A DNA stretch of 64,000 bases. It comes from Pikeienuella piscinae. Lineage in GTDB: Bacteria; Pseudomonadota; Alphaproteobacteria; Rhodobacterales; Rhodobacteraceae. Numbering within the stretch: the stretch's first letter is position 1; each line of letters starts with the position of its first letter. Of this stretch, positions 53,594 through 64,000 are shown piece by piece. The translations under genes were made by a program, and so were the position numbers. The notes beneath the pieces were generated by a model that was given only the letters and a program-made list of their open reading frames with translations, was not told the DNA's origin and ran no database searches. The stretch lies in NCBI RefSeq assembly GCF_011044155.1, contig NZ_CP049056.1, forward strand, positions 1,612,001 through 1,676,000, given 5' to 3'.

Positions 53594-54451
53594 CTATCGC
53601 GCCGCCGCCGCCATGACCAGCGTCGCGGCGGGCGCCGCGCTGCGAATGGCGATCTCGTCGATCCAGACGAGGAATGCGGTCAGTTCGTTCGGCCCGAAGG
53701 TATGCGTCAACGGCGCGTCGGCCGCGTCCCGGCCCTGCGCGATCAGCACGCGGCCGACGCGCCTGGAGTTGTTGCGCGGGTCGAAAACATGCCAGCGCCC
53801 GCCGAGATAAACTTCCATCCACGCCGCGAAATCCACCGACTCATCGGTCTCGCCCAGACCGATATCGCTGATATAGCCGGTGCAATAGCGCGCGGGGATG
53901 TTCATGCAGCGGCAGAAGGCGATGGCGAGATGGGCGAAGTCGCGGCAGACTCCGCGCGCCTCCTGGCAGGCTTCGGCCGCGGTCCGCGTCGGGCGCGAAT
54001 GCTCGTAGCCGAATTCGATGTGCTCATGGACGAAATCGCAGATCGCCTGCACCCGCGCCCAGCCTTCGGGCGCGCCGCCGAAAAGCCGCCAGGCGTCGTC
54101 TGAAAGCTGATCGGTCTCGCAATAGCGGCCGCCCAGCAGATAGACCAGCGAATCCGGCGGCAGCTCCGCCACATCACGTTGCGACGACTCCGGCTCAAGC
54201 GGGTCGAGCGCGCCATTGTCGCGAAGCACGCCATCGGTCCTCAGCGTGAACGCGCCCGCCGGCGCGAGCAGCCGGCAACAGCGGTTGCCGAAGCCATCCG
54301 CGTACTCCTCGACCGGAACGATCGGGTCAGTGACGACGGTGTCGGGCGCCTCCAGGTCCGGGCGCCGCGACGGATGCACGTTCAGCATCACGATCATCGG
54401 CGTCGGGGCTGGAAGGCGATTGGTCAGTTCGCAACCCAATCCGATCCGCAT
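53594..54451 (-). CDS. transglutaminase-like family protein lacking the expected catalytic His
   Basis: A 285-residue bacterial transglutaminase-like protein. It has the N-terminal beta region and a core with TAAEACQEARGVCRDFAHLA, giving the nucleophile Cys169, followed by GYISDIGLG and HVFDPRNN with Asp224. The position where the family usually has His (DFHAW) reads DFAAW here (Ala209), so the Cys-His-Asp triad appears incomplete. It could be a non-catalytic binder, or another His (such as His221) may substitute. It lies 105 bases after the glutamate dehydrogenase gene and begins a tight run with the HIG1-like and adenosyltransferase genes. Confidence 0.87.
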   Translation of the reverse strand: MRIGLGCELTNRLPAPTPMIVMLNVHPSRRPDLEAPDTVVTDPIVPVEEYADGFGNRCCRLLAPAGAFTLRTDGVLRDNGALDPLEPESSQRDVAELPPDSLVYLLGGRYCETDQLSDDAWRLFGGAPEGWARVQAICDFVHEHIEFGYEHSRPTRTAAEACQEARGVCRDFAHLAIAFCRCMNIPARYCTGYISDIGLGETDESVDFAAWMEVYLGGRWHVFDPRNNSRRVGRVLIAQGRDAADAPLTHTFGPNELTAFLVWIDEIAIRSAAPAATLVMAAAAR

Positions 54452-55975: not shown

Positions 55976-56214
55976 ATCTGATATCCCTTTACCTGCGGGC
56001 CCGCATCTCATGGCGACGCCTCGCCGACACTAGAACACAAGTGCATCGCATTTTTGAAGGGGCGGCCGGCGCAACTATTGAGAGAAAACCGTGAATGCGT
56101 TACACCAAAAGAAAATATTGCTGTTTACTTCGCTTTCCGATCCGGCGAACGGTTGGCGCGAAATTCATCGAGAGGGCGTTCGGCGGGCAAGCCGATTGGG
56201 GGCGGTGTGAGACG

Positions 56215-58380
56215 ATGACCGATACGGCGAAGCCCGCGCGAAAAAGGGGCCGCGTGTCGCTGCGCGTGAGCCTGATCGCAATCATGCTCGGCACCGTAGC
56301 GCTGACCTCGGCCGCGGTGCATATCCCGTGGCTGCTGGTCAGCAGGCAGAATGTCGCCGACATCGCCGGTCAGCTCAACGCGGAGATCATCGGCGGCGTC
56401 AACCGCGAAGTCTCGTCGATGCTCGATTCAGCCATCGCGGCGCAGAGCGCGCTGCATGACACGCTCATCGCCGGCGGCGTCGACTTCGAGGACAAGTCGA
56501 CCCGCGACCGCCTGCTTTTCGCGTTCCTGAAGGCGCATCCGCATTTCTCCTGGGTCAGCTTCGGGGCGCCGAACGGCGATTTCTTCGGCGCGCAGCGGCG
56601 CGACGACATCCATCTGCGCCTGGTCGAGAGCCGTTGGAACGAAGCGCTGGGCGAGGCCGCACGCACCGAGGTCATGTATCTCAAGGATGGCGCGGAATTT
56701 ACGCGGACCGGCGCGGAACTGAAGCAGAACAAGTATTATGCGCCTGATCGCGCCTGGTACAAGCGCGCGGTCTGGGCGCCCGGCCACCATGTGTGGACCG
56801 ACATCTACATTTTCAGCGACTCGCGCAAGCCTGGCCTCAACTCCGCGATAACCCTGGAAAACCTCGTGACCGGCGAACTCCTCGGGGTCATAACCATAGC
56901 GATCGAGCTTGAACAGATCTCGCTCTATCTCTCGGAACTGTCGTCGGTCAGAAGCGGCGCCGCCTTCATCATCGACAGAAGCGGAGACCTGATCGCGTTC
57001 TCCGATCCCGGGGAACTGGTCCAGCGCAGTCGACTCTATGACGAATCGGACCTTCAGCCGTTGGCGCAGAGCCGGCATCCCATGCTTCAGCTGGCCCAGG
57101 CCGGGTTCGTGGAGAACGGGGTCGAGACCGACAACGTCACCGGCCGTCAGCAAATGACGGTGAAGGCGGCGAATGGCGAGCGCTATTTCCTGACCGTAGC
57201 GCCGACGGTGCGCGAAGGATGGTTGCTCGGCACGCTCATACCCGAAGCGGATTTCATGGGTGCGATCGAGGCCAACTACATCCGGCTGGCGCTGATCGTG
57301 GCGGCTGCGCTCTTCGTCGTCGGGCTGATCGCGCTCCTCGTCTCCCGCCATCTTCTCGTCCGCCCGCTCCAGCGGCTGGCGGTCGAGACCGGCAAGATCG
57401 CCGGTTTCAATCTTGACGACGTGCGCATGATCAGCAGTCCCCTGATCGAGATTCAGGCGCTCGCCGACGCCGTCGAGCAGATGAGTCACGGGCTCCGCTC
57501 TTTCCGGCGCTACATCCCGACCGATCTGGTCAGGACCCTGCTGCAACACGGCGGCGCCGCGGAGATCGGCGGCGAGCGGCGGACGATGACCATCGTATTC
57601 ATGGATCTTCAGGGCTTCACCACGGTCTCCGAACGTCTGGGACACCGCGTGCTGCCAGTTCTCGGCGACTATTTCGGCGCCATGACCACCGCGATCCGGG
57701 CGCAGCGCGGCACCATCGACAAGTTCATCGGCGACGGCGTGATGGCGTTCTGGGGCGCCCCGGCCCATGAGGAGGATCACCCGGCTCTGGCCTGCCGCGC
57801 CGCGCTCGACTGTCAGGCCGCGATGGACAAGCTCCGCGCCGAATGGACCGAACGCGGCCTGCCGCAGCTTCATCTCAGGATCGGCGTGAATTCCGGCCGG
57901 GTCGTGGTCGGCAATGTCGGCAGCGAGGAACGCCTGAACTACACGGTGATCGGCGACCCGGTGAACCTCGCCGCACGGCTGGAGGGGATGAACCGGCAGT
58001 TCGGCACCGGGATCCTCATCAGCCAGTACACCTACGAGATGGTCAAGTACGACATGCTCGCGCGCCCGCTCGAAAGCGTGCGGGTGAAGGGCAAGGAAGA
58101 AGCGGTGATGGTCTACGAGCTTCTCGCCGCGCGCGACGACGATGGCGTGGTGGCCGGCTTTGAATGGGTCCAGCATTACGAGGCCGGCTTCAAACGCTAC
58201 GCCGAGGGCGACTGGTCGGAAGCCGCCCGTCATTTCCGTCTCGCCATCGAGCAGCGCGGCGGCGACACCGTCAGCGAAGATTACCTTGAGCGGACCGAGC
58301 ACCACATGGCGGTCGATCCCGCCCCCCGCATTCTCGCCATCGGCAGCGATAGTGGCGACGGGGAAAGGGAGCCGGACTAG
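56215..58380 (+). CDS. membrane-bound class III adenylate cyclase with Cache and HAMP domains
   Basis: A 721-residue sensor cyclase. TM1 lies near residues 15-42. An extracytoplasmic dCache-type domain follows to about 350 (FLKAHPHFSWVSFGAPNGDF, YYAPDRAWYKRAVW). TM2 is near 355-380 and HAMP near 380-430. The cyclase domain starts near 455 with both metal Asp residues (VFMDLQGFTTVSERLG and KFIGDGVMAFWG). The LNYTVIGDPVNLAARLEGM segment has the purine-selecting Asp and the transition-state Asn-Arg pair, favouring ATP. It would convert an external ligand signal into cAMP. The ATG at 56215 is preferred over a longer start that adds 40 Arg/Cys-rich residues. Confidence 0.93.
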   Translation: MTDTAKPARKRGRVSLRVSLIAIMLGTVALTSAAVHIPWLLVSRQNVADIAGQLNAEIIGGVNREVSSMLDSAIAAQSALHDTLIAGGVDFEDKSTRDRLLFAFLKAHPHFSWVSFGAPNGDFFGAQRRDDIHLRLVESRWNEALGEAARTEVMYLKDGAEFTRTGAELKQNKYYAPDRAWYKRAVWAPGHHVWTDIYIFSDSRKPGLNSAITLENLVTGELLGVITIAIELEQISLYLSELSSVRSGAAFIIDRSGDLIAFSDPGELVQRSRLYDESDLQPLAQSRHPMLQLAQAGFVENGVETDNVTGRQQMTVKAANGERYFLTVAPTVREGWLLGTLIPEADFMGAIEANYIRLALIVAAALFVVGLIALLVSRHLLVRPLQRLAVETGKIAGFNLDDVRMISSPLIEIQALADAVEQMSHGLRSFRRYIPTDLVRTLLQHGGAAEIGGERRTMTIVFMDLQGFTTVSERLGHRVLPVLGDYFGAMTTAIRAQRGTIDKFIGDGVMAFWGAPAHEEDHPALACRAALDCQAAMDKLRAEWTERGLPQLHLRIGVNSGRVVVGNVGSEERLNYTVIGDPVNLAARLEGMNRQFGTGILISQYTYEMVKYDMLARPLESVRVKGKEEAVMVYELLAARDDDGVVAGFEWVQHYEAGFKRYAEGDWSEAARHFRLAIEQRGGDTVSEDYLERTEHHMAVDPAPRILAIGSDSGDGEREPD

Positions 58381-58542: not shown

Positions 58543-59136
58543 TCAGTGCGCGGCGTTGCGATATTGCAGGGCCTGCATGCCGATCGCCATCGCCGGCCCG
58601 ATGCCCACTGCAAAGAAGATCGTGCCGAGGCCAAGCGTGCCGCCCAGCGCCCAACCGATGGCGACAACACCCACCTCAAGACACATGCGCACGAGCGCGA
58701 CGGGCTGATCGGTGACCGCCTGAAGCCCGGTCATGAGGCCGTCTCGGGGCCCGGGGCCAAGATTCGCGATCAGGTATATCGCCCCGCCGAAACCGGTCAC
58801 CATCACGCCTGTCAACGCCAGAAGGATGTTGGCGGCGTAACTCTCGAATGACGGCAGAAGCGGCAGCACGTACTCCAGCACCAACGCGATCACGATCGCG
58901 TTGAGGATCGTGCCCATGCCGGGCGTCTGCCTGAGTGGGATCCACAACAGCAGGACGGATACGCTGATAACGAAGGTCGCGCCGCCCAGGCTCCAGCCTG
59001 TGACGTTGGTCAGGCCTTGCGCGAAGACGGTCCATGGACTTACGCCCACGCTTGCGGTGACGAGCAACGCCTCTCCCAGGCCGAATACGATCAGGCCGAC
59101 GATGAGGAAGAAAAGAGACGCCAAAGGCGGCTTCAT
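58543..59136 (-). CDS. YczE/YitT-type integral membrane protein
   Basis: A 197-residue membrane protein with five to six hydrophobic helices. LFFLIVGLIVFGLGEALLVT, the conserved GVSPWTVFAQGLTNVTGWSL, TPGMGTILNAIVIALVLEYV and ANLGPGPRDGLMTGLQAVTD match the YczE/YyaS family, whose function is unknown and which is often transcribed beside a regulator gene. No regulator is seen next to it. ATG at 59136 is chosen because upstream in-frame codons add a Lys/Ser-rich leader. It converges on the cyclase gene across 162 bases with no clear terminator. Confidence 0.88.
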   Translation of the reverse strand: MKPPLASLFFLIVGLIVFGLGEALLVTASVGVSPWTVFAQGLTNVTGWSLGGATFVISVSVLLLWIPLRQTPGMGTILNAIVIALVLEYVLPLLPSFESYAANILLALTGVMVTGFGGAIYLIANLGPGPRDGLMTGLQAVTDQPVALVRMCLEVGVVAIGWALGGTLGLGTIFFAVGIGPAMAIGMQALQYRNAAH

Positions 59137-59544
59137 GGTGAAAGCCTTTGGCGAACTCCATTTGAGCTTTGGAACCGACTTGATCGACAGAAAACTCAAA
59201 GCGGAACCCGGTTGAAAGGGTTGGTTTGCTGGAGTTCGCGACGGCTTGACGAGTGCACGGATATCCCAGCCTTACGATTGAGCAAGCCTGCAAACCAGGG
59301 TGGAGCGGTCGGCGTTCATCCGAACCTAATGGCTCTTACTCTTCGGGCTGGAGCGTCGCAACCCGGCGGCGGCGATCAGGCGGAACATGCCGTAATTCGC
59401 GGAATCGAGCCGAAGCGGCCACCCGAAACTTTCCGTAAGTCTCCGGCTACGCCCCGCGCGACGAATGTCCACCGGGCCGCTTCGTCCCGCGCATGGCCCC
59501 GGGCCGAACGCGCACGAACCCGCTCCAGCCGGATGGGTTCCGCC
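59137..59544. other. 408-base gene-free interval, visibly less GC-rich
   Basis: This is the longest stretch without a gene call. Its first half has more A and T than anything nearby. It contains only short open frames with no recognisable product, none with a convincing ribosome binding site. It must carry the promoter of the YczE-type gene on its left side and the end of the minus-strand sensor-transporter operon on its right. It may also hold a decayed gene. Confidence 0.6.
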
Positions 59545-60726
59545 TCAGTCGCCCCCGCGCGCCACGTCGCGCCCGTTGACCCGCGCCAGCGCGCCCTTCG
59601 CGTCATAGACATATGACGCCGTCTCGAAGAACGAGAACGGCACTTTCATCCCGACCGCCCGGGCGCGGAGGAAATTCACCGCGATGTCGGGCGGCGAGAC
59701 GAGGCCGACCGGCAGCTCCGCCGCCGCGCGCCGCCCGGAAAGGATCTCCGCCCCGTAGACCGCCGCCAGCTGCGCGTTGGATTCGAAGCTCACCCCGATC
59801 GAGAGAAGCGCGCTCGCGGCCCCCTCCTGAACCACGTCGGGCACGACGGAGAGCACCGGCGCCCGGTCGCTATGCGCGTTGATTTCGGCGATCTCGGTGA
59901 AGACGCTGGTCGAGCCGGTGATCCAGAATAGGCTGTTCTCCAGCGTCGGGTCGGTCAGCCGCATCCGGGCCACCGCCGCGGGCGTCAGCGCCGCGAGCTC
60001 ATCGCGGGCCTTCGCCGCGTCGGTCACCGCAACCTCGAACGCGTTGACGCCGGCCGCGCGCATCGCCGCCTCGATCGGCCGCGCCTGGGTCTCCACCGCG
60101 CTGGTGTTGCCGGCATCCACCAGGATCGCGAGGTTCTTCAACCCCGGCTTCAACTCGCGCAGGTATTCGACCTGCACGTCGATGCGGAGGTTGAGCGAGG
60201 TGAAGGCGATCGAATCGCCGCTCCCGGAGGTGTAATCCGGCATCTGGCCAAGCTGCACCGGGTCCTTCGCGCAGACCGTCACCACCGGCGTCCGAAGATC
60301 GCCGCGCAGCCCGTTGATCCACTCGACGGTTTCGGAGCCCATCGCGTAAACCAGCGCGTAGCCCTCGCGCGCCGCCTCCGCCAGCAGCGCGTCGCCGCGC
60401 GCCGGATCCTGCCTGAAATTCACCGCGACAAATTCGAGATCGAGCGCCCGGTTCGCGAATTCGTCGAGCAGCGTCGTCATGGCGACGTCATAGGCGCTGG
60501 AGCGGCGCGGATAGATCACCATCACCCGGCGCGCATCCGCCGAACCCGGCGCCTTCGGGCGGATCAGGATGCGGCCGTCCGCGTCGGGCGGCTCGACCCG
60601 CCACTCGGCCAGCGCGGCCGCGCCAAGGTCGAACCAGTCGGCGATTCGGTCCTGCGCGTCATCGCCTCCGCGCGCCGGCCCGGCGGCGACGATGAGGCAG
60701 GCGGCGAGCATGATCAGCGTCCGCAT
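59545..60726 (-). CDS. ABC-type substrate-binding protein (ABC_sub_bind / TrpX-like), orphan
   Basis: A 393-residue secreted binding protein. A signal peptide (RTLIMLAACLIVAAGPARG) precedes two Rossmann-like lobes of the PF04392-type family: VMVIYPRRSSAYDVAMTTLL, VTVCAKDPVQLGQMPDY, LKNLAILVDAGNTSAVETQA, and VLSVVPDVVQEGAASALLSI with GVSFESNAQLAAVYGAEIL. Relatives bind tryptophan or other aromatic or nucleobase-like ligands. No ABC permease or ATPase gene is adjacent. It starts one base after the stop of the sensor-MFS gene, so it may deliver ligand to that protein rather than to an ABC pump. Confidence 0.9.
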   Translation of the reverse strand: MRTLIMLAACLIVAAGPARGGDDAQDRIADWFDLGAAALAEWRVEPPDADGRILIRPKAPGSADARRVMVIYPRRSSAYDVAMTTLLDEFANRALDLEFVAVNFRQDPARGDALLAEAAREGYALVYAMGSETVEWINGLRGDLRTPVVTVCAKDPVQLGQMPDYTSGSGDSIAFTSLNLRIDVQVEYLRELKPGLKNLAILVDAGNTSAVETQARPIEAAMRAAGVNAFEVAVTDAAKARDELAALTPAAVARMRLTDPTLENSLFWITGSTSVFTEIAEINAHSDRAPVLSVVPDVVQEGAASALLSIGVSFESNAQLAAVYGAEILSGRRAAAELPVGLVSPPDIAVNFLRARAVGMKVPFSFFETASYVYDAKGALARVNGRDVARGGD

Positions 60727-60727
60727 C

Positions 60728-63037
60728 TCACCCCTCCTCCGCTCTGCGCCGGCCCGGTCCGGGCGCGCCGAAAAGCAGCGTGAAAACCAGCAGCAGCCCG
60801 CCGATCCAGAGGAACGCCATCCCCCCGCCCCCAGCGGCGGTGAAGATCAGGCCGACAAGCACCGGGCCGGCGACATGGCCGATCCTCTCCATCAGCCGAT
60901 AGATCGCGGTCGCCGCCGGGCGGCCAAGCTTCTCCGCCGCGTCGGTGTCGCCGATGTGAGAGACGATCGGCGCGTTGACGCAGCCATGGGCGAGCCCGGT
61001 GATGAAGACCCCGCCCGCCGCGATGGCGAACTCCACCGGCGGCGCCAGCCCCGCGAAGCTGCTTCCACCGATCATCGCCAGCCCGAGCGCGGAGCCGACG
61101 CCGCCGAGCATCAGGACGCCCCGGCTGTCCCCGGTCCGGTCGACATGGCGCGACGCCGCCCCCGTCGATAGCAGGACGCCCGAGGCGTAGAGCATAATGA
61201 TCTGGCCGATATCCTCGGCCGTCCAGCCCTGATTGCTGAGAAAGAGCGGCGCGGCGAAGACGATCACGCCGGTCAGCACCGCTTTCGCCGGCGCGCCGAC
61301 CAGAAGGAATGCGCGCATGAAACCGAAGCTGCCGATGGCGCGGGCGCCGTGGCGGAGAAGGCCGACGAAGCTGGCCGCTCCCTCGCCTTCCGGCGCGCCT
61401 CCCCGGATCAGACGCGCCGCGTAGAGCGCCAGCAGCAACGCCGCGAGAGACGAAAGCGCGAAAACTCCCTCCGCCGTCAGGTCGTCGACCAGGAGCGAGC
61501 CGATCGCCGCGCCGGAGATCATCCCGCCATTGAAGCCAATGACGATGATCGCCGTGGCGCGGGTCCGCTCGCGCGCCGACGCGTTGGCGAGAATGGCGCT
61601 CTGCACCCCGATCAGCAGCAGCCCTTGCCCGATTCCGGCCAGCGCCCGCGACGCGACCAGCGTCTGAAACTCCATCGTCAGCGCCGGCAGCGCGCCGGCG
61701 GCGGCGACCAGCACCGCGCCTGTCACCACCGGCGCGCGCGGCCCGCGTCGCTCCACCCACACGCTGGCCGGCAGCAGCGCGGCGACGAATGTCGCGAAAT
61801 AGGCGGTGAAGGCCAGCGACGTCGCGCTCTGGCCCAGTCCCAGCGCCGCCGCCTCGTCGCGCAGAAGTTGCGGCAGAAATCCCGCCGAAAGGAAATCCGC
61901 GAAAATCGCGACGAAGAAGATCGGCCGCATCAGCGTCAGCATCCGCGCCCCCGCGCTCGTGGCCCCGCCGCCGAGCGAACGCGCGACATTGAGAAACACC
62001 GCCGCGAAAAACCCCGACGCGAGCAAGAGCGCCGCGAAATTCTTGACGCTCCGCCCGACCGCCTTCCAGACCACCTCCGCCGGGAGCGCGACGCCGACCT
62101 GAATCTCCTCGCCCGCCCCCGCGGGGTTTACTTTCACGATGAATTCATAGGCGCCCGGCGCCGCCCGCCAAGGCGCCCCCATCATCGCCGGATCGGTATG
62201 GACGGAGACCAAGCCGTCGCGCATCAGCCCGACGGCGGCGATATCACTGTTGCGCCGTTCATAATCCGCCAGCACCCGGTCCAGCCCGTCGACATCGTCC
62301 AGCGTCAGCCCGTAGTCGAGCAACGGTCGGATACGCTGCGCGAGTGAATCGGAGATCGCCTCGGCCTTCGCCTGCGCGCCTTCGGCGTAGAGCGAGACCA
62401 GACTGGCCGCGACCGCGGTCGCGGCGATGACGAAGACCAGCCCATAGACGCCGACGGTGCGCGCCGCGAGCCCGCCGCGCGCCGCACGCGGCGCGGCCCA
62501 GAAGGCGAAACCGCCGAACGCGAGGACAAGCCCGCCGGCCAGCGCGATCAGCGCCGGCAGCATCGCGTCGATCCGCGCATCGATGACGGCGCGGGCCATC
62601 GTCACCTCGAGTTGCCCGACCCGCTCGAAACGATTGCGCATCGCCAAAGCGACCTGCACCCAGCCGTCCTGCTGGCTCAGCGCGAAGCGCGCGTCCGCCT
62701 CCGGACCGGGCGGGCGGGGAACCGCCGCCTCACCGACGCTGAAGACCGCCGCCCCGTCCGCCCCCCGCACGACGATGGCGGCGACGGTCGGGTCGGCCAC
62801 ACGGATCGGCTCCGCGATGCGTCGGAAGCCGGGAAACTCCCCGACCGGCAGGCCGGCGCGCAAATGCCCGTCCATCGCGCTCTGCACGATCTCGCCTTGC
62901 GCCGCCAGCTTGTCGAAAATGAACTTCGGATAGGTCCGCTTCGCCTCGCCCCAGCCGACGAACACCAGAAGCGCGAGCGAGAGCGCCGCGACGAGACTCA
63001 GGAGCAGCGCGCTTCGCAACCTCGCGCCCATGCTCAT
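60728..63037 (-). CDS. MFS transporter fused to extracytoplasmic sensor-like domains
   Basis: A 769-residue protein with an unusual layout. TM1 (residues ~8-28) is followed by a ~130-residue extracytoplasmic domain, two closely spaced helices near 160-215, a second extracytoplasmic domain to about 335, and another helix near 345. From ~375 to the end it has the 12 hydrophobic helices of the major facilitator superfamily (LASRALAGIGQGLLLIGVQ, ILANASARERTRATAIIVIG, YASGVLLSTGAASRHVDRTG). The N-terminal half resembles sensor histidine kinase or chemoreceptor input modules, but no kinase follows. It is flanked by the ATP-grasp and binding-protein genes in one operon. The transported substrate is unknown. 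Confidence 0.85.
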   Translation of the reverse strand: MSMGARLRSALLLSLVAALSLALLVFVGWGEAKRTYPKFIFDKLAAQGEIVQSAMDGHLRAGLPVGEFPGFRRIAEPIRVADPTVAAIVVRGADGAAVFSVGEAAVPRPPGPEADARFALSQQDGWVQVALAMRNRFERVGQLEVTMARAVIDARIDAMLPALIALAGGLVLAFGGFAFWAAPRAARGGLAARTVGVYGLVFVIAATAVAASLVSLYAEGAQAKAEAISDSLAQRIRPLLDYGLTLDDVDGLDRVLADYERRNSDIAAVGLMRDGLVSVHTDPAMMGAPWRAAPGAYEFIVKVNPAGAGEEIQVGVALPAEVVWKAVGRSVKNFAALLLASGFFAAVFLNVARSLGGGATSAGARMLTLMRPIFFVAIFADFLSAGFLPQLLRDEAAALGLGQSATSLAFTAYFATFVAALLPASVWVERRGPRAPVVTGAVLVAAAGALPALTMEFQTLVASRALAGIGQGLLLIGVQSAILANASARERTRATAIIVIGFNGGMISGAAIGSLLVDDLTAEGVFALSSLAALLLALYAARLIRGGAPEGEGAASFVGLLRHGARAIGSFGFMRAFLLVGAPAKAVLTGVIVFAAPLFLSNQGWTAEDIGQIIMLYASGVLLSTGAASRHVDRTGDSRGVLMLGGVGSALGLAMIGGSSFAGLAPPVEFAIAAGGVFITGLAHGCVNAPIVSHIGDTDAAEKLGRPAATAIYRLMERIGHVAGPVLVGLIFTAAGGGGMAFLWIGGLLLVFTLLFGAPGPGRRRAEEG

Positions 63038-63078
63038 CAGATCGGCCTCATCAGCGCCACCTCATCGGATCGTCCGCA

Positions 63079-64000
63079 TCAGAGCAGCGCCGCGATATGC
63101 TGGACGACGGTCGGGCGGTGCCTGAGATAATGCCCGAGCCGGTCGAGAAGAAGCGAGAGCAGCAGATCCTCGTAGCACATGCCCTCTGCTTCCAGCCCGG
63201 CGCAGACCAGGCTGATCTTCTCGCCGTCCGGTCGCTTCAGATCCGGTTTCGGATTGGCTTCGAGGATCGAAAGCCGCCCGTCGGTATCGGCGCGGATGTC
63301 GAGCCGCACCAGCGCGCGCAACTGAAAATCGTCATGGACCCGGCGCGCCAGATCGACCAGCCCGGCATGGGCGGGGTCGTCCGCCGTCAAGAGCCGCACC
63401 CGGTCCGCGGTGATCGGCCGGATATCCATCGAGGTAAAGATCGGCTCGCCATCGTCGACCAGCCGCTCCAGCACCGAAAACGCGAACGGCGCTTTGAGCA
63501 ACGACGGCGCCCCGTCCCGAACGACGAGCGGGCCGGAGATGGCGACGCAATATTCCGGCCCGCCCATGAACGTCTCGATCTGAACCTGATCGAGCGATTC
63601 GGCGTAGACCCGGTCGACGATCTCGGAAAGCCCGGCGCGATCGGGAACGAAGAACACGTTCTGCGAGGCTCGGCCGACGACCGGCTTGACCACATAGGCG
63701 CCCTGATGGCCCCCGAAGATCGCCTGAAAGCGCGGGTCGGTTTCCGGCTCCAGCCGCCCGCGCACGCCATCCCAGACCATGAAAGGCGGCGTGGGCAGCC
63801 CGACCGCCTGGCATTCGCGCTTGAATACATGTTTGGAATCAAGGGTCAGAGACAGAAGCGGACGATGGCCGATATAGGGCACCCCGCTCAGCTCCAGCAT
63901 CGACGGCGTGTGCGCGATGGCGTCATAGCCCTGCACCCCGGCGGTGTTGAGCCAGGCGAGGTCGATCTCCTCCTCGCGCAGCCGTCCGGGCAGCGTCAGA
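63079..64000 (-). CDS. ATP-grasp ligase, D-alanine-D-alanine ligase-like (5' end beyond window)
   Basis: At least 306 residues of an ATP-grasp enzyme; the frame is open to the right edge, so the start is outside. Motifs seen are LELSGVPYIGHRPLLSLTLD with SKHVFKRECQAVGLPTPPF (the substrate-domain/hinge region), GAYVVKPVVGRASQNVFFVP (ATP-binding loop), QVQIETFMGGPEYCVAISGP (catalytic loop start), RALVRLDIRADTDGRLSILE and EANPKPDLKRPDGEKISL (metal-binding Glu and Asn). Members join a carboxylate to an amine through an acyl phosphate, making dipeptides or amino-acid conjugates. It is 41 bases upstream of the sensor-MFS gene on the same strand. Confidence 0.9.
   Translation of the reverse strand, partial: LTLPGRLREEEIDLAWLNTAGVQGYDAIAHTPSMLELSGVPYIGHRPLLSLTLDSKHVFKRECQAVGLPTPPFMVWDGVRGRLEPETDPRFQAIFGGHQGAYVVKPVVGRASQNVFFVPDRAGLSEIVDRVYAESLDQVQIETFMGGPEYCVAISGPLVVRDGAPSLLKAPFAFSVLERLVDDGEPIFTSMDIRPITADRVRLLTADDPAHAGLVDLARRVHDDFQLRALVRLDIRADTDGRLSILEANPKPDLKRPDGEKISLVCAGLEAEGMCYEDLLLSLLLDRLGHYLRHRPTVVQHIAALL

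Follow-up and report, generated by a model that had tools for sequence, protein, structure and literature searches.

We analysed a window of 64,000 nucleotides from the single 4.37-Mb contig of the Pikeienuella piscinae genome and examined three minus-strand open reading frames (ORFs) at its end. In the order of transcription, these encode a Ddl-fold ATP-grasp ligase of 389 aa (63079..64000 and on beyond the window edge, with the gene start 248 bases outside it; complete as L004:7079-8248), a 769-aa membrane protein of the major facilitator superfamily (MFS; 60728..63037), and a 393-aa binding protein of the ABC_sub_bind/TrpX-like type (59545..60726). The latter two were assigned by Pfam and by predicted structure. 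The intergenic gaps were 41 and 1 bases, and the ORFs confirm the spacing and common strand given in a first-pass annotation of the window. The three genes (the trio) are a conserved unit, beyond chance.

The ligase matched the Pfam family Dala_Dala_lig_C (E = 1.4e-7; 31.7 bits against a cut-off of 24), and all 36 of its PDB sequence matches at E ≤ 1e-5 were Ddl/Van-type small-molecule ligases. Its earlier description as an ATP-grasp ligase holds at this profile level. The score for the D-Ala-D-Ala ligase family TIGR01205, obtained with the 306-aa part inside the window, was 51.9 bits against a cut-off of 245.65. R315, D317, E330, and N332 were invariant in 12 aligned ligases and matched Arg255, Asp257, Glu270, and Asn272 of DdlB, which we take to be Mg/ATP residues. 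The D-Ala site of DdlB is presumably formed by Glu15 and the segment after Asn272. Glu15 aligned with the invariant R53 of the ligase, showing that this D-Ala-site residue is not kept, and the segment after Asn272 was replaced, reading NPKPDLKRP in most ligases with a 5-residue insertion. Because the Mg/ATP residues are kept and the D-Ala-site residues are changed, we infer from the alignment that the enzyme is probably an active carboxylate-amine ligase for a substrate other than D-Ala, perhaps an acidic one. A housekeeping D-Ala-D-Ala ligase was rejected on the basis of the score far under the cut-off and the replaced D-Ala-site residues. The most ordinary account of the locus, namely a spare D-Ala-D-Ala ligase adjoining unrelated transport genes, can draw on the fact that the nearest named families are D-Ala-D-Ala ligases; the same score and the same residues speak against it, as does the conservation of the ligase together with the MFS and binding-protein genes, and we regard it as very improbable.

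The MFS protein matched MFS_1 (E = 1.4e-29; 103.5 bits against a cut-off of 33.4), with residues 374–559 as the best of two stretches. Its architecture comprises two modules of transmembrane helix, Cache domain, and transmembrane helix (approximately residues 1–185 and 190–359) followed by the MFS domain (approximately residues 365–760). The predicted structure of residues 1–364 had a mean predicted local distance difference test score (pLDDT) of 88.4 and contained two modules of helix, PDC-type domain, and helix. The only fold matches of this N-terminus at E ≤ 0.001 were a WalK model and the dCache chemoreceptor MkcA (E = 6.1e-4). Among the 50 matches listed, the best target-normalised TM-scores were 0.69 for 3cwf and 0.63 for DcuS (3by8), with weak E values of 0.13 and 0.069, respectively. 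The sensing domains gave no Pfam hit at E ≤ 0.001 and no PDB sequence match at E ≤ 1. The extracytoplasmic part is predicted from the model to carry two Cache/PDC-type domains, and the MFS_1 profile and the Cache folds in a confident structure prediction bear out the first-pass view of a sensor-MFS fusion. In regards to the MFS half, the charged residues K585, H684, R714, E717, R718, and H721 were conserved in 28 or more of the 30 MFS halves compared, as expected of a working transporter. No solved MFS structure was found near this half at E ≤ 0.1.

The binding protein matched ABC_sub_bind (PF04392; E = 2.9e-6; 27.2 bits against a cut-off of 25.9) and scored far under the cut-off for the TrpX equivalog (35.9 against 390). 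Its predicted structure had a pLDDT of 92.8, and the nearest solved folds were CD0873 (6hnj and 6hni), the Trp-bound 3lft, and 3lkv of V. cholerae, with target-normalised TM-scores of 0.69–0.73; LuxP (1jx6) was also among the fold matches, at rank 26. The stretches KDPV, TSLN, and PPDI were nearly fixed across 30 binding-protein sequences. Lys154 was invariant in the binding protein and is Ser or Thr in the three PDB relatives. No ABC permease or ATPase was seen in the 8 kb past the window edge or between position 54000 and the trio, where the ORFs were mostly judged by eye. The earlier claim of an orphan binding protein is upheld by the PF04392 profile, the fold match, and the lack of ABC partners alongside, and no complete ABC transporter, which would have spoken against that claim, was seen among the adjoining ORFs.

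We examined 51 loci, comprising the window and relatives found via the ligase; presence and absence refer to the stretch around each locus, and this ligase-seeded sample is silent on whether the MFS and binding-protein genes occur without the ligase. The trio was present in one order and on one strand at 41 of the loci, so that the neighbourhood search suggested with the first-pass annotation finds the three genes co-conserved. These 41 were 15 alphaproteobacterial loci, one locus in a metagenome-assembled genome (MAG) labelled cyanobacterial, and 25 loci in one type of type VI secretion system (T6SS) cluster of Vibrionaceae and Moritella. The loci are not all independent, since L022–L024 are three contigs from one genome. 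The full trio was lacking at ten loci, namely one of V. proteolyticus (L017), two of one draft genome (L050 and L051), and seven of cyanobacteria (L099–L105). The MFS and binding-protein genes were both present at 41 loci and both absent at 8, one of which (L102) extends only 1.6 kb past the ligase; the two draft-genome loci lie near contig ends that cut them off and were not judged for these genes. L050 and L051 carry divergent ligase copies, and the frame that follows the first of them begins differently from the sensor-MFS protein, reading as a membrane segment with further sequence.

The ligase has a scattered distribution. A scan of genome contigs gave 21 ligase loci. Profile searches at a threshold of E ≤ 1e-60 matched 10 of 385 genomes in a sample of the alphaproteobacterial class, 4 of 398 in a phylum sample (two of them already among those ten), and 3 of 4 in the genus of the window. 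In the family of V. penaeicida, 21 of 121 genomes matched, and 8 loci were read besides that of V. penaeicida; among 174 genomes from the phylum of the MAG labelled cyanobacterial, 8 matched, that MAG included. In the class of Moritella, the only match among 369 genomes was the Moritella genome itself. No ligase relative was found in phages at E ≤ 1e-10, and one Vibrio ligase gene, searched as DNA, matched nothing in E. coli genomes. Six plasmid records contained a ligase relative, all from Vibrio, and two of these were read. A search for the sensor-MFS protein in the family of the window matched 3 of 100 genomes, including that of the window itself. We rejected the remaining two matches, which were weak (E = 1.3e-4 and 8e-4) and came from short loci that, on inspection by eye, encode other proteins. 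The scatter across alphaproteobacteria would suit an operon for nutrient response, in which an environmental solute is sensed by the binding protein and the Cache domains, and the MFS protein and the ligase merely move and assimilate it. The fold relatives of the binding protein, which bind nutrients such as amino acids, point the same way. A Ddl-like ligase would be odd for assimilation, and the presence of the ligase without the other two genes nearby in cyanobacteria and V. proteolyticus does not fit such an operon, which we consider quite unlikely.

None of the seven cyanobacterial loci contained a relative of the MFS or binding-protein gene in the stretch examined. At five of the seven, a gene for an EamA-family transporter lies directly before the ligase on the same strand (by Pfam for three); at the other two, the ligase has no adjoining EamA gene. 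Some bacterial EamA proteins are known exporters. The pairing places the same enzyme with another transporter and helps a reading in which the ligase product is made and exported.

Small or overlapping gaps were found throughout the trio in the window and in 10 relatives measured, with starts chosen by us, and the MFS and binding-protein genes of the 10 relatives overlap or nearly abut (−4 to 12 bases). Correlations of inter-locus distances, with shared species history still included, were 0.95 for the binding protein and the MFS protein, 0.94 for the ligase and the MFS protein, and 0.89 for the ligase and the binding protein over 28 loci, and 0.95, 0.90, and 0.87, respectively, over the 15 alphaproteobacterial loci. 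The near-abutting genes, the joint presence (41) or joint absence (8) of the MFS and binding-protein genes, and their correlation as the tightest of the three would all agree with binding-protein-dependent MFS uptake, in which the binding protein would hand an amino-acid-like solute over to the MFS protein with the Cache domains as the dock, and the ligase would use the imported solute. The conserved charged residues likewise fit a working, specific transporter. This is the main rival to the signalling function that we propose below, and such a system would be new in its own right, lying outside the TRAP, TTT, and TAXI-GltS classes. Uptake alone leaves the linked cyclase and kinases and the T6SS setting (see below) unexplained, and the EamA partners in cyanobacteria point to export. 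Furthermore, the MFS is not known as an elevator-type family. One study suggests that coupling to a binding protein may need an elevator-type transporter (PMC12344293). Together, these points make the uptake explanation unlikely in our view.

In the 25 T6SS-associated trio loci, the trio is flanked by clpV on one side and by an SBP_bac_3-like gene on the other, the latter followed by fha, tssJ, and tssK, with tssL next where the stretch extends far enough. The T6SS genes were called by Pfam on L027 and by BLAST on the other loci. At L011, L013, L014, and L018, clpV and the ligase are separated by one or two extra ORFs, and at L072 by a 1.4-kb gap. An identical gene order is seen on annotated plasmids of V. 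crassostreae and V. tubiashii. The SBP_bac_3-like protein of 231 aa (L027:12463-13158 and equivalents; under the Pfam cut-off) is encoded at all 26 T6SS loci, including that of V. proteolyticus. In the latter (contig BATJ01000001; L017:5238-10792), the ligase and SBP_bac_3-like ORFs overlap by 4 bases, and no MFS or ABC_sub_bind gene was found in the cluster. At L062 (7077-9965) and L063 (5164-8046), the T6SS clusters are annotated with two tandem large-sheath (TssC) genes.

The T6SS3 cluster of V. proteolyticus is described, in the text available to us, as having two genes between clpV and fha that are unlike those of T6SS2 (PMC5666596). We took L017 as T6SS3 because just two ORFs, for the ligase and the SBP_bac_3-like protein, lie between clpV and fha. 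According to the accessible part of another report, T6SS3 effectors are delivered into macrophages, and similar clusters occur in V. crassostreae and V. anguillarum (PMC9545535). These portions of the T6SS3 literature give no role for the clpV-fha genes. The retention of the V. proteolyticus ligase in a T6SS cluster without the MFS and binding-protein genes would suit an ATP-grasp enzyme that adds amino acids to a protein, such as a T6SS component, the cyclase, or a receptor, under the control of an MFS-binding protein sensor. There is a proposed precedent, since another ATP-grasp clade, with some links to T6SS-toxin loci, has been suggested to modify proteins (PMC4431377, in the part of the text available). 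All 36 PDB matches noted above being small-molecule ligases, and the EamA pairing suggesting a soluble product, we find such protein modification improbable. VipB gave no match in the window genome, and it gave none in 12 of the 14 further ligase genomes from outside the vibrios and Moritella, several of which are drafts. We take the T6SS to be one setting of the trio and probably not its core function because most of these genomes had no VipB match, and on the same counts a universal T6SS accessory is unlikely.

A gene for a protein with a dCache domain and a class III adenylate/guanylate cyclase domain (56095..58380, plus strand; Pfam dCache_1 and Guanylate_cyc) converges on the trio in the window. 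We searched for it in the 385 alphaproteobacterial genomes of the ligase class sample, scoring at most two candidates per genome, and obtained matches at E ≤ 1e-90 in 16. The six genomes with at least 41% identity were all ligase genomes (the window genome, G301, G192, G467, G179, and G164). The match was near full length with 42–58% identity in G301, G192, G467, and G179, and covered the dCache half only (41%) in G164, where the protein is a histidine kinase. The other ten genomes had at most 39% identity, and none was a ligase genome. With the query genome removed, the near-full-length group gave 4 genomes with both genes, 5 with the ligase only, 0 with the cyclase only, and 375 with neither (Fisher p = 1.4e-7; cut chosen post hoc), and all hits at E ≤ 1e-90 gave 5, 4, 10, and 365, respectively (p = 5e-6); both tests ignore phylogeny. 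The cyclase is on a different contig from the trio in the drafts G192, G467, and G179. A near-full-length cyclase relative was present in 8 of 13 genomes with the trio and in none of 22 lacking it, most of the 22 being from one family, and shorter cyclase-domain matches occurred in many trio and non-trio genomes alike. These results indicate that the cyclase is a likely fourth member of the unit and its probable output partner. The first-pass annotation had missed this member; the T6SS setting could not have been known from the window.

Twelve of the 15 alphaproteobacterial loci had a signalling gene within approximately 1.2 kb of the trio, a count made with no random control. The neighbour is a cyclase in the window and at L008, L009, L042, and L065, a dCache-histidine kinase at L045, a GAF/PAS-histidine kinase at L043, L044, and L048, and a GGDEF-EAL protein at L047, L052, and L053. 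No signalling gene was found within this distance at L049. Two loci were cut behind the binding-protein gene, L046 at 0.9 kb and L064 at 1.5 kb, and the latter was compared with known proteins only. The trio-type receptors share R-x-W-Y, presumably the dCache amino-acid motif, with the usual Asp missing, and we draw no ligand from it because of that lack and because some non-trio cyclases have similar residues. Judged by eye, the PAS region (GVVYQR...RYTYI) is closely alike in the kinases and GGDEF-EAL proteins of L043, L044, L048, L052, and L053, which would suit tuning to a common cue. Located 3′ of the trio at L012 (13768-15912) is a 714-aa dCache protein whose C-terminal half resembles a Cys-loop ligand-gated channel by eye; Pfam gave only Cache-type domains. 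A defence system is not favoured: a PADLOC scan covering the trio and the cyclase gave no hit in the trio, and its hits to PycC, the cyclase that acts with an effector in Pycsar defence, spanned the cyclase domain only.

Our preferred reading, which we hold tentatively, is that the trio is a self-contained cassette for small-molecule signalling or self-sensing. A small conjugate would be formed by the cytosolic ligase from a carboxylate and an amine, amino-acid-like in nature, and then exported by the MFS protein, whose own pair of extracytoplasmic Cache domains would gate the transport. Once outside, it would be captured by the periplasmic binding protein, which would dock on the Cache domains of the MFS protein, on the dCache receptor, or on both, in the manner of LuxP-LuxQ. 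The output would run through cAMP/cGMP in the window genome and through a histidine kinase or c-di-GMP enzymes in other genomes; in Vibrionaceae, it would perhaps be T6SS activity. Synthesis, movement, and reading of a conjugate would be the simplest account because the ligase stands beside two transporter families, the binding protein is tied to the Cache-bearing one, and second-messenger receptors lie around the unit. The first-pass annotation had proposed that the unit makes, exports, and monitors a metabolite. That proposal remains conjectural and now has partial support from the EamA pairing (5/7) and from the linkage to Cache receptors and second messengers.

Several observations weigh against this signalling proposal. 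The ligase occurs without the MFS and binding-protein genes nearby in V. proteolyticus and at the seven cyanobacterial loci, and making and monitoring are separable because of this. The distance correlations were lower in the gammaproteobacterial set of 12 loci (0.85 for the binding protein and the MFS protein, 0.75 for the ligase and the MFS protein, and 0.55 for the ligase and the binding protein). The cyclase at E ≤ 1e-90 was missing from 4 of 9 non-query ligase genomes, and the T6SS loci showed no relative of it. Genomes of this kind tend to be rich in signalling genes, which weakens the count of neighbouring signalling genes. Moreover, what we take to be the exporter-like motif of transmembrane helix 5 is only partial in the MFS half.

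Between the cyclase and the trio lies a 218-aa ORF (58543-59199) that is membrane-like by eye, has no Pfam hit, and had no relative in the 21 other loci compared. Upstream of the ligase, the 8 kb past the window edge encode an Exo_endo_phos protein (by Pfam) together with leuC, leuD, and unrelated membrane-protein ORFs, read by eye only. A promoter/terminator scan gave no promoter-like site and 7 terminator-like sites against 3.9 expected, and nothing was drawn from this count.

The cassette is real and apparently undescribed, and from its make-up and surroundings we infer its function. Our searches of the open PMC literature, limited to text without figures, turned up no description of the trio; the component families are known, and, as far as we found, their combination and a Cache-MFS protein with a coupled binding protein are undescribed. 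It is possible, if doubtful, that the trio represents a new transport-and-sense class, in which an MFS protein and a dedicated periplasmic binding protein would work through built-in Cache domains on a ligase-made signal, with cyclic-nucleotide, c-di-GMP, kinase, or T6SS outputs. If the product is a signal, a compact cassette for synthesis, export, and sensing would be common to alphaproteobacteria, vibrios, and the MAG labelled cyanobacterial, and it would give a first handle on the role-less genes inside the T6SS3-type clusters of marine vibrios. These predictions can be tested with purified proteins.

Among known systems, LuxP/LuxQ has a periplasmic binding protein that is read by a periplasmic sensor domain. 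Like the trio, it combines a type I binding protein with a PAS/Cache-like extracytoplasmic domain; unlike it, the trio carries its sensor domains on an MFS protein and not on a kinase, includes a ligase, and has LuxP only as a distant fold match. BacD/BacE of bacilysin consists of an ATP-grasp amino-acid ligase with an MFS exporter. It resembles the trio in placing such a ligase beside an MFS protein and differs in that it is not known to include a binding protein or Cache domains. TrpX and CD0873 share the fold and PF04392 with the trio binding protein, which differs in having no ABC permease or ATPase seen nearby and Lys154 in place of Ser/Thr. Clusters of the V. proteolyticus T6SS3 type contain the trio, or in V. 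proteolyticus the ligase alone, between clpV and fha, whereas the window genome has no VipB match. TAXI-GltS, TRAP, and TTT, as set out in the available part of PMC12344293, resemble the trio in coupling a binding-protein gene to a secondary-transporter gene without ABC parts. The trio differs from them in having an MFS protein instead of an elevator-type transporter, another binding-protein family, and the additional Cache domains and ligase. According to the same part of that source, no secondary transporters other than TRAP and TT had been known to use a soluble binding protein before that study (PMC12344293). If the binding protein truly serves the MFS protein, the trio bears on the question raised there in 2025 of why binding proteins serve so small a number of secondary-transporter types and whether this requires an elevator mechanism (PMC12344293).

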